Of a DNA stretch of 64,000 nt, positions 36,069-44,702 are shown one piece after another; the stretch's first letter is position 1; every line of letters starts with the position of its first letter. The stretch is from NCBI RefSeq assembly GCF_014251795.1, contig NZ_CP059201.1:558001-622000 (forward strand), given 5' to 3'. The position numbers were made by a program, and so were the translations under genes. This DNA is from Blattabacterium cuenoti. GTDB taxonomy: Bacteria; Bacteroidota; Bacteroidia; Flavobacteriales; Blattabacteriaceae. The notes beneath the pieces are model-generated. The model had not been told where the DNA came from. It saw only the letters and a list, made by a program, of their open reading frames with translations, and ran no database searches.

Positions 36069-36302
36069 TTAAAGTTCATATTCATCTCTATTCCAATAAA
36101 AATCTTCATCGTCTCGTGGATAATCTGCCCATATATCTTCTATAGATTCAAAAACTTCTCCATCTCCATTTTCCAATTGTTGAAGATTCTCAACAACTTC
36201 TAAAGGAGCTCCAGTACGAATAGCAAAATCAATCAATTCTTCCTTTGTTGCGGGCCATGGTGCATCTTCTAAATGAGAAGCTAATTCTAAAGTCCAATAC
36301 AT
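36069..36302 (-). CDS. DUF2795 family protein
   Basis: A 77-residue acidic, soluble protein (YWTLELASHLEDAPWPATK, then a Glu/Asp-rich tail ending DFYWNRDEYEL). It fits the small DUF2795 proteins widespread in Bacteroidetes. Its unusually well-kept, GC-richer sequence in this genome suggests strong purifying selection. Function is unknown. It is divergent from fmt. Confidence 0.8.
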   Translation of the reverse strand: MYWTLELASHLEDAPWPATKEELIDFAIRTGAPLEVVENLQQLENGDGEVFESIEDIWADYPRDDEDFYWNRDEYEL

Positions 36303-38604: not shown

Positions 38605-39729
38605 ATGTATTTTTCTATTTTTAGTTCTTTTTTATTAAGAAAATTACATGCTTTATATAAAATTATAGATATTCATGGTTTATCGAATTTGATTATTTTT
38701 GAAATCGATAAAAAAAATCAATTACAAATTACATGGGGATTAGATTCAAAAAATCTAATTCAGACATACATGAAAATCAATGTAAAGAAATACACTAAAG
38801 AAAAAATAACCATATCTATCAAATTCATAATAGATGTTTTAACTACGTTTTCAAATGAAAATCTTTTTATAAAAAAGGAAAAAAATACACTTAATATTTA
38901 TTCCCAGTATGGGATTTATGAAATCCCTATTTGTTTTGATTCAAATCAAAATTATAAAAGTTTTATTCAAATATGTAAAGGTCATTTTATAAAAATTGAT
39001 TTATCTTCAGATATACTATTAAAAATATTAAACAAAACTTTATTTATGTCTGTAAGAGAAAAATTGAAACCTGTGTTAAATGGAGTTTTGTTTCAATTTC
39101 TTTCTCATGAAGCGAATTTTATATCAACAGATACTTATAGACTAGTAAAATATACAATCAAAAATTTTCAAATCAATAAAAATGTACAATTTATTATATC
39201 TAGAAAATATCTCAACATAATTAAAGAAATTCTTAAAGAGGAAAAAGAAAAAAGTCATATTGTTATTGAATATTATGATCAAAAAAATATAATTTTTCGT
39301 CTTAAAAATCATATTTTATTATGTCAATTAATCAATGAAAAATATCCAAATTATCATTATATTATTCCTCATAAAAAATGTAAAATTTCTATCATAATCA
39401 ATAAATTATTATTATTAAATACTATTAAAAGAATTTTTCTTTTTTCTGAAAAAAAAAATAATTTTATTGATTTCCATTTTAACAATAATAAACTAAAAAT
39501 CTGTAATCAAAAAACGATTAATATTCCTACTTCAGAAATTCAATGTAAAATTGTGATCAACAATATTAAAAGAATGAAAATAGGTTTTGATTCTCAATTT
39601 TTAATTGAAATCTTATCTTCTTTGGAAGATTTTATTTATTTCGAATTCTATGATAAAATGGGTATTTTAAAATCCTTAAAAAAAGAAGAATCAATTTTTA
39701 TATTGATTATGTCTACAATAAAAATATGA
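38605..39729 (+). CDS. dnaN: DNA polymerase III beta subunit (sliding clamp)
   Basis: Ring-shaped processivity clamp. The 374-residue protein shows three clamp-fold domains, diverged but collinear. Recognisable are MSVREKLKPVLNGVLFQF (start of domain 2), FISTDTYRLVKYTI and NEKYPNYHYIIPH (end of domain 2). The C-terminus is ESIFILIMSTIKI, in place of the usual MPMRL-type ending. dnaA is not adjacent. It overlaps pheT by 4 bases (ATGA). Confidence 0.9.
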   Translation: MYFSIFSSFLLRKLHALYKIIDIHGLSNLIIFEIDKKNQLQITWGLDSKNLIQTYMKINVKKYTKEKITISIKFIIDVLTTFSNENLFIKKEKNTLNIYSQYGIYEIPICFDSNQNYKSFIQICKGHFIKIDLSSDILLKILNKTLFMSVREKLKPVLNGVLFQFLSHEANFISTDTYRLVKYTIKNFQINKNVQFIISRKYLNIIKEILKEEKEKSHIVIEYYDQKNIIFRLKNHILLCQLINEKYPNYHYIIPHKKCKISIIINKLLLLNTIKRIFLFSEKKNNFIDFHFNNNKLKICNQKTINIPTSEIQCKIVINNIKRMKIGFDSQFLIEILSSLEDFIYFEFYDKMGILKSLKKEESIFILIMSTIKI

Positions 39730-41792
39730 AAGTATCATTAAACTGGATTAAAAAATATGTGTTTCCTATTAATATGAATCAAAATCAAATATCAAACATA
39801 TTAACTGATATTGGATTAACAGTAAAAGCTATTAATAACGTAAATAATGATTTTATTTTAGATATAGAAATCACACCTAATCGTACAGATGCCATGAGTC
39901 ATTATGGAATAGCACGTGATTTATATGCTGTTTTAAGATTTCGTGGATATAAAGTTCATTTGCTCAAACCAAAAATAAATGAAGATTATTGTTATCAGTC
40001 ACATATAAAAATTTTTGTTCAAGAATATGATAAATGTATAAGATATTCTGGAATATTTATTTCAGGAATAAAAATAGAAAAATCTCCATATTGGCTAATT
40101 TCTCAATTAGAATCTATAGGAATCCGATCTATAAATAATATTATAGATATAATGCATTTTGTCATGTATGAATTGGGTCAACCAGTTCATATTTTTAACA
40201 TGAATCAAATAAAGGATGTTAAAATTGTAATAAAAAATGCAGAAAATAATACACATTTTCAATATTCAGATAATATTAAAATCAAACTTGATAAAGAAGA
40301 TTTAGTTATTTATGATAATGCACATCCATTATCTATAGGGGGGATAATTAATCATGTTGAATCTAACATAAATGTTAAAACTACAAATATTTTTGTAGGA
40401 AGTGCTTGTTGGCATTCTACAATTATACGAAATATAAAAAAAAAATATTCAAAAAAAATAAAAACACAATATCCTTATTTTTTTGAAAAAGATATAGATC
40501 CTAATCAAACTGTATACGCTTTACAAAGAATAGCTTTTCTCATAAAAGAAATCATAAGAAATAAAATAGTATGTTCGAATGTAATAGATTTTTATCCTAA
40601 TCCTATATATTTTTCAAAAATAAAACTTCGTTACAATAAAATTATAAATATTTTAGGGAAAAAAATATCAATAAAAAACATAAAAAAAATTTTGTCATTA
40701 TTAGAAATGAAAATTGATTATGAAAATCAAAAATATTTATTTATTGAAGTTCCTTCTTATAGAACAGATGTTAAAAGAGAAATAGATGTTATAGAAGAAA
40801 TATTACGAATTTATGGTATACATAAAATACCGATATATAATAATCAAGTAAAAATTTCTACACATATCAAGTTTTTTGAAAAAACAGAATATGAGATACA
40901 AAAAATACTTTTTGAACAATTGATTAATTATGGTTTTCAAGAAATTATTTCATCTACCATGATAAATGAAAAAAAATACTCTTATTTTTTCAATTCTTTC
41001 TTGAAAAGGAAAGAGATTCAGGTTATGAATCCAGTTAATCAAAGTTATAAGTTTATGAGATCTAGTTTATTATTTAGCATGATAGATTGTATTGAATATA
41101 ATTATAAAAATAATCGAATAAAATCTTATATAAAGTTTTTTGAATTAGGAAAAATATACTATAAAAAGAATGATAAATTTTTAGAAAAACCCTATCTTGG
41201 AATAGCTATAGCAATATCAAAAAAAGAAAAAACTGAATATAATTATTATTCTTTCTTTTATTTAAAAGGAATTATTGAACAAATTTTGCAAAAAAGTGGA
41301 ATATACAATTATACTCAAATACTTTCTGAACATCCATTGTTAGAAAATGGAATTTCTATATTATATAATCACAAAAATTTAATTGAAATAGGAAAGTTTA
41401 AAAGAACTATTTTAAAAAAAAATGAAATTTTTTATGCAGAAATTGATTGGAAGTATTTAATATCTATTATTAAAGAAAAAAAAATAATTTATATTCCATT
41501 ATCTAAATATCCTACTTCAAAAAGAGATTTATCTTTATTCGTAGATCAAACGATTTCTTTCGAAAAAATAAATCAATTAATTAAAAAAAGAGAAAATCAT
41601 ATCATTAAAAAAGTTGAAATATATGATTTATATAAAGGGATAAATTTCCCTACATCAAAAAAATCTTACACAATAAGTTTCTTTTTTGAAAGCAAAAAAG
41701 AAACATTAACTGAAGAAATAATTAATGATTCAATGAAAGAGATTGAATTTTTTTTAAAAAAAGAATTAAAAGCTGAAATAAGAAAAAAATAA
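39726..41792 (+). CDS. pheT: Phenylalanyl-tRNA synthetase beta subunit lacking the OB-fold domain
   Basis: Forms the alpha2-beta2 PheRS. At 688 residues it is about 110-120 shorter than usual. The N-terminus (MKVSLNWIKKYV ... ILTDIGLTVKAI) passes at about residue 40 directly into DFILDIEITPNRTDAMSHYG, skipping the EMAP/tRNA_bind OB fold normally between them. B3/B4 (PSPYWL-like KSPYWLISQLESIG), B5, the catalytic-like module and the C-terminal FDX-ACB domain (YPTSKRDLSLFVDQ) remain. No frameshift is seen at the junction, so it appears to be a clean in-frame loss. Confidence 0.93.
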   Translation: MKVSLNWIKKYVFPINMNQNQISNILTDIGLTVKAINNVNNDFILDIEITPNRTDAMSHYGIARDLYAVLRFRGYKVHLLKPKINEDYCYQSHIKIFVQEYDKCIRYSGIFISGIKIEKSPYWLISQLESIGIRSINNIIDIMHFVMYELGQPVHIFNMNQIKDVKIVIKNAENNTHFQYSDNIKIKLDKEDLVIYDNAHPLSIGGIINHVESNINVKTTNIFVGSACWHSTIIRNIKKKYSKKIKTQYPYFFEKDIDPNQTVYALQRIAFLIKEIIRNKIVCSNVIDFYPNPIYFSKIKLRYNKIINILGKKISIKNIKKILSLLEMKIDYENQKYLFIEVPSYRTDVKREIDVIEEILRIYGIHKIPIYNNQVKISTHIKFFEKTEYEIQKILFEQLINYGFQEIISSTMINEKKYSYFFNSFLKRKEIQVMNPVNQSYKFMRSSLLFSMIDCIEYNYKNNRIKSYIKFFELGKIYYKKNDKFLEKPYLGIAIAISKKEKTEYNYYSFFYLKGIIEQILQKSGIYNYTQILSEHPLLENGISILYNHKNLIEIGKFKRTILKKNEIFYAEIDWKYLISIIKEKKIIYIPLSKYPTSKRDLSLFVDQTISFEKINQLIKKRENHIIKKVEIYDLYKGINFPTSKKSYTISFFFESKKETLTEEIINDSMKEIEFFLKKELKAEIRKK

Positions 41793-44267: not shown

Positions 44268-44702
44268 ATGCCCCATTTCAATTTTTTTATCAAAAATCAT
44301 TTGCATTTAAAAAAAATAAAAAATAAAATCCATATATTTTGCGTAATCAGAAAAAAATTTTATATCCTGACTCAAGAAGAAATGATACGTCAATATATAA
44401 TTTTTTTATTAAAGAAAATAAAAAATTATAAAAACTCCAATATATGGGTAGAATACCCTTTTCAAATAAACAAGTTAAACAAACGATTAGATATTTTAGT
44501 TCATTTAAATAAAAGACCTCATATCATTGTTGAATGTAAAATACCAAAAATATCTATAACACAAAAAACTTTCGATCAAATTTCCATGTACAATCAAAGC
44601 ATAAATGCTCCATTTTTAATGATTAGTAATGGAATCAAAAATTTCATTTTTCAAGTAAATAAGTATAAAAAAAATTTTCTATTTTTAAAAAATATTCCAT
44701 AA
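44268..44702 (+). CDS. HSDR_N-like PD-(D/E)XK domain protein
   Basis: A 144-residue stand-alone domain resembling the N-terminal domain of type I restriction R subunits. A QEEMIRQYIIFLL segment is followed by NKRLDILVHL and HIIVECKIP, which give the nuclease-like D-x(n)-E-x-K pattern (about residues 76 and 88-90). No helicase or methylase is nearby, so this is not a restriction system. Stand-alone copies are common in Bacteroidetes and of unknown role. It is divergent from trxB. Confidence 0.75.
   Translation: MPHFNFFIKNHLHLKKIKNKIHIFCVIRKKFYILTQEEMIRQYIIFLLKKIKNYKNSNIWVEYPFQINKLNKRLDILVHLNKRPHIIVECKIPKISITQKTFDQISMYNQSINAPFLMISNGIKNFIFQVNKYKKNFLFLKNIP

Follow-up and report, generated by a model that had tools for sequence, protein, structure and literature searches.

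We analysed a 64,000-nucleotide stretch, referred to here as the window, from the reduced genome of the cockroach symbiont Blattabacterium cuenoti. A single open frame on its plus strand (positions 39726-41792) encodes PheT, the PheRS beta subunit, in a short form of 688 amino acids without the B2 domain, an assignment based on the open frame, Pfam, NCBIfam and a search of relatives. The protein scores 491.1 bits on the bacterial profile TIGR00472 (pheT_bact), above the cut-off of 402.65, and the better of its two matching stretches begins at residue 38, corresponding to profile position 155. The archaeal/eukaryotic type profile TIGR00471 matches it weakly (93.5 bits against a cut-off of 282.65). 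Alignment to E. coli PheT places the first part of the B1 domain at residues 1-39 (39726-39842, plus strand) and the second at about residues 40-82 (39843-39971, plus strand), with boundaries that we assume from the usual domain limits, the second part being taken as E. coli 152-190. Downstream on the same strand, Pfam recognised four domains above cut-off: the B3/B4 editing domain with its fold kept (PF03483, 40032-40553), B5 (PF03484, 40620-40817), the catalytic-like module B6/B7 (CLM, PF17759, 40890-41429) and the B8 anticodon-binding domain (FDX-ACB, PF03147, 41502-41783). PF18262 (PhetRS_B1) was matched weakly over residues 13-66, under its cut-off (E 0.025).

The start of pheT overlaps by 4 bases with the gene for the sliding clamp (DNA polymerase III beta; 38605-39729, plus strand). 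Two further frames in the window may be mentioned for their own sake. One (44268-44702, plus strand) encodes a stand-alone 144-amino acid protein with the N-terminal domain of a type I restriction R protein (HSDR_N_2, PF13588) in this reduced genome, and the other (36069-36302, minus strand) encodes a 77-amino acid DUF2795 protein (PF11387), whose composition by eye is little bent by the AT-rich genome.

The B2 domain is represented by PF01588, to which Pfam gave no match in window PheT at E values up to 1. No window residue aligned to E. coli PheT positions 40-151, a site that holds 111-116 letters in E. coli and nine outgroups. These results bear out a preliminary description, made from the letters of the window, which had proposed that an OB-fold tRNA-binding domain of about 110 residues was lost at a clean in-frame junction; the frame is open, and B2 is absent as a unit in the E. 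coli alignment. That description had also raised the prospect of B2 being encoded elsewhere. Across the whole 626,488-base genome PF01588 was unmatched even with E values of up to 10 allowed; all 14 control genomes were positive in the same search. In the relatives PF01588 is also common in frames of about 670-730 amino acids, the size of MetRS, which we infer to be that enzyme; a genome without any PF01588 would thus be missing the putative MetRS copy of the domain too. In one relative (G050), a piece of PF01588 lies in an 89-amino acid frame about 1.8 kb from a match in a 607-amino acid frame.

An AlphaFold2 model of window PheT, computed from 42 aligned sequences (mean pLDDT 85.9, pTM 0.57), suggests how B1 closes. 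Strands 33-39 and 42-47 are predicted to join across the deletion point as a beta hairpin spanning residues 33-47 (39822-39866, plus strand), with a pLDDT of 92 for residues 31-40 and 91 for residues 41-50. B2 normally sits inside B1, so that taking it out leaves B1 intact. In a structural comparison, bacterial PheRS beta chains were the top matches, with Z up to 43.8 and an rmsd of about 19, a value at which the relative placement of domains in the model is unreliable. The human cytosolic PheRS chain reached Z 20.1, compared with 43 for bacterial chains. A 207-residue B1-B2-B1 fragment of M. pneumoniae PheT is described in an excerpt of PMC12494982.

The distribution of the short form was followed with PheT and PF01588 searches through 100 genomes including the window's own, comprising 49 from the genus, 12 others from the family and 39 at order level. 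All 49 genus genomes carry a short PheT in a stop-free open frame of 685-722 residues, with identity to the window's protein down to 48%, and PF01588 was found in none of the 49. In one of them (G039, L019) the alignment row was cut to 631 amino acids by start choice and B1 fell outside it; its search match begins at residue 8. Among the 12 further family genomes, PF01588 is retained only in G050 (1.3 Mb) and G053 (263 kb), and eight have a clean short PheT. In the two smallest relatives, G056 and G060, the B2 site holds 54 and 61 letters, with PF01588 unmatched. At order level, PheT was matched in 37 of 39 genomes with frames of 801-861 amino acids (one stop flagged in each of G080 and G099), the PheT search gave no match in G084 and G087, and PF01588 was present in all 39. 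A short form general to the Flavobacteriales, the other prospect raised in the preliminary description, is ruled out by these 37 of 37 long frames. A wider view came from named loci, the best 80 of 525 relatives, among which the window's genus is absent. B2 is at least partly present in 79 of these 80, and the sole PheT without it belongs to Candidatus Bostrichicola ureolyticus CP100318.1 (L115). Loci L154, L157 and L160, matched from query residues 65, 26 and 1, look short through contig ends or start choice and have B2 at least partly there.

If B2 had been lost only once, then the rows without it should group together. In an rpoB tree of 28 rows, G049, which has no B2, instead fell into one group (support 100/100) with two B2 carriers, G050 and G053, separately from the clade of the window's genus, so that the trait required two changes. 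Forcing the B2-less rows together cost 99 log-likelihood units and was rejected with a p-AU of 1.24e-7, and with it a single loss. A PheT tree of 31 rows with one long branch, from which the B2 columns had been removed, placed G049, G050 and G053 in another order and again gave two changes. G056 and G060, whose branches are very long, entered a quick rpoB tree and were excluded from the 28-row rpoB tree and the PheT tree. Given two changes in each tree, the wider family has seen at least two losses of B2.

Aligned residues of the editing pocket in B3/B4 have changed as well. With E. coli numbering, T253 and N254 correspond to M143 and H144 in window PheT (40152-40157), G318 and G319 to N209 and H210 (40350-40355), and E334 to G225 (40398-40400), all on the plus strand. 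In every one of the 49 genus proteins G318, G319 and E334 are each replaced or deleted, and 88 of 88 outgroup proteins retain all three. H265, which we take from the alignment to be Thermus His261, is H155 in the window protein and is retained in 43 of the 49, while retention at other pocket positions ranges from 10/49 (T253) through 30/49 (N254) to 46/49 (G315). Some substitutes are themselves conserved in the genus (G at 334 in 47/49, N at 318 in 42/49), and positions 319 and 356 are variable. The preliminary description had called the rest of the protein complete, which holds for the presence of the other domains but not for this pocket, short of key residues. An excerpt of PMC3275996 places the PheRS editing site at the B3/B4 interface and names Glu334, His261, Asn250, Thr249, Gly315 and Glu323 in Thermus numbering. 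For the E. coli G318W variant, an excerpt of PMC4066437 gives a drop in post-transfer editing of more than 70-fold, with persisting growth and a gain of sensitivity to m-Tyr. The fact that H265, G315 and N254 are mostly retained in the genus makes residual or altered editing possible, and the conserved G at 334 might signal a new role.

We considered whether pocket and domain decay in step. G049 has lost B2 and retains G318, E334 and H265, with changes at T253 and G319, and G053 retains B2 and has lost H265 and G318. These two relatives contradict a strict coupling of B2 loss with pocket loss. Nor is the pocket statistically singled out within PheT. Outside B2, 127 positions show no variation in the outgroups (8 in the pocket and 119 others). 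Of these, 3 of 8 pocket positions were lost compared with 27 of 119 others (Fisher p 0.39), and such positions were lost in B6/B7 and B8 as well. The case for a loss of editing hangs on which residues changed and how, not on their count.

We also compared editing sites in five other synthetases, giving their motifs the commonly assigned editing roles and residue numbers. In the window's genome, outside the window, the ThrRS match (G000:C1:187298-188491) is without the N-terminal TGS and editing region. Throughout the genus, ThrRS is matched only from E. coli residue 222-243 onwards (49/49, frames of 403-464 amino acids, a stop flagged in G004), compared with residue 3-13 in 9 of the 12 other family members and residue 1-4 in 38 of 39 order-level genomes, the remaining one (G098) being a fragment. 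In G056 and G060 the match begins at 232 and 244, and G059 is unmatched. The ThrRS editing set HHDCH is complete in 0 of 9 genus members, against 9 of 9 other relatives aligned. A search with the N-terminal part of ThrRS gave one weak match in G018 (E 0.005) and none at the other four loci tested. In LeuRS, also outside the window (G000:C1:515717-518497), the motif TTRPDT reads TSHPEM. This motif is intact in 0 of 49 genus proteins versus 24 of 24 aligned order-level proteins, the latter drawn from 36 order-level genomes with a match; LeuRS of G056 and G060 was left unaligned. T252 is retained in 5 of the 49 genus proteins and the D345 column in 8, and the LeuRS editing domain PF13603 is recognised in the window's genome with 114.7 bits against a cut-off of 25. 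As internal controls, four of four genus members checked retain the motifs of ValRS (TTRPET, TPAHD), IleRS (TT.PWT, GIVH..PTFG..D) and AlaRS (H...H, C.G.H). At the level of motifs and domains, proofreading parts have been lost in three of the six editing synthetases examined, those for Phe, Thr and Leu.

The short gene is under purifying selection. In 10 close genus pairs, drawn from genomes other than the window's own, dN/dS was 0.19-0.47 over the whole of pheT and 0.19-0.67 for B3/B4, so both the gene and its B3/B4 part are constrained in the genus. One domain value reached 1.01, for B8 in the closest pair, where changes are few. In the partner subunit PheS, Ala294 is retained in 43 of 43 aligned proteins and so gives no sign of a sharpened synthetic site; compensation at this position is rejected, as it is unchanged. 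A separate observation concerns E. coli position 255 of PheS, which is Val in the window's genome (FTEPSVEVD; L108, G000:C1:278114-279019), Ala in 39 of the 43 aligned proteins, Leu in G052 and Phe in G056 and G060.

From these data we judge it likely that window PheT is a working PheRS beta subunit without B2 and most likely without post-transfer editing, set within a selective loss of proofreading. B2, an EMAP-II-like OB-fold, has been removed from B1, which a short hairpin is predicted to close. With B1 whole, the subunit could go on assembling with PheS, recognising the anticodon through B8 and supporting aminoacylation, and the charging of tRNAPhe by the short PheRS presumably still works. 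B2 is thought to aid the editing of misacylated tRNA, and a B3/B4 site without G318, G319 and E334 would leave Tyr-tRNAPhe and m-Tyr-tRNAPhe uncleared; editing by PheRS has most likely gone. The accompanying losses in ThrRS and LeuRS, with ValRS, IleRS and AlaRS spared, would fit selective loss under reductive evolution inside the host. Since proofreading parts were lost in three synthetases, proteins may carry more errors than usual, and mistranslation may be raised in the genus. The preliminary description had summarised the locus as domain-level shrinkage of an essential enzyme, which is true but incomplete, as it misses the pocket decay, the ThrRS and LeuRS editing losses and the repeated loss of B2.

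Could the protein simply have shrunk, with a dispensable B2 deleted by neutral processes and both charging and editing still running at useful rates? We think this unlikely. G049 agrees with it, being without B2 and keeping most pocket residues, as do the retention of H265 and G315 in most of the genus and the lack of enrichment of losses in the pocket. A pocket still editing at useful rates is harder to reconcile with the change of G318, G319 and E334 in every genus protein, and with a genus that is also without the ThrRS editing region and the LeuRS motif while the motifs of three other enzymes are retained in all members checked. A different possibility is that B3/B4 was retuned, with G334 and N318 conferring another specificity and B2 shed as unneeded for the new substrate. 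The constancy of these two substitutes despite identities down to 48%, and a B3/B4 dN/dS below 1, are what such retuning would predict; the variation at positions 319 and 356 is not, and the editing losses in LeuRS and ThrRS point to a relaxed need. We regard retuning as quite improbable. The chance that the short form comes from faulty sequencing or assembly, or that the gene is a pseudogene, is negligible, and nothing observed speaks for either. The same short open frame in 49 of 49 genus genomes excludes an assembly slip, Candidatus Bostrichicola ureolyticus shares the form, and the frames are open and under purifying selection in the 10 pairs.

The favoured reading, a charging enzyme that has most likely given up editing, extends to a broader proposal in which we place about even confidence. 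According to this proposal, the genus, made up of obligate insect symbionts, dropped Phe, Thr and Leu proofreading and spared that of Val, Ile and Ala, in convergence with the Mycoplasma set, and its PheRS further shed B2. If this is true, the proteome of these cells would be 'statistical' and rich in errors. The same three proofreading functions seem to vanish in unrelated reduced genomes, and, should the convergence hold, the editing functions that a cell can spare would be predictable. The old question of which proofreading steps are dispensable in a minimal cell becomes testable, and G053 (B2 with a decayed pocket) and G049 (no B2 with a mostly intact pocket) are relatives in which the order of losses can be studied. 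In this family an essential enzyme has also been stripped of a domain naturally, and repeatedly.

Among the open-licence literature matches listed, none reports that Blattabacterium has lost B2 or editing, and neither loss is mentioned in the excerpted text of PMC9035817. Compared with the bacterial PheRS beta subunits of E. coli and Thermus (TIGR00472), window PheT has B1, B3/B4, B5, B6/B7 and B8 in the same order and differs in lacking B2/PF01588 and in the changes at G318, G319 and E334. The RNA-binding domain of PheRS, which we take to be B2, is reportedly dispensable and contributes to editing, as the title of Roy and Ibba's 2006 study has it; theirs was a laboratory enzyme, whereas the domain loss here is natural. 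Archaeal and eukaryotic cytosolic PheRS beta shares the B3/B4 editing fold, but the window protein is of the bacterial type with B8. The minimalist yeast mitochondrial ThrRS, as excerpted from PMC4267643, belongs to a mitochondrion, in contrast to the bacterial symbiont studied here. M. pneumoniae PheT retains B2, to judge from the excerpt of PMC12494982, while window PheT is without it, and the lineages are unrelated. A likeness in kind comes from an excerpt of PMC4014445, in which Mollicutes ProRS is without a cis-editing domain and Mycoplasma species carry editing-domain variants in LeuRS, PheRS and ThrRS, the same trio with lost or altered editing sites, likewise in a reduced genome.
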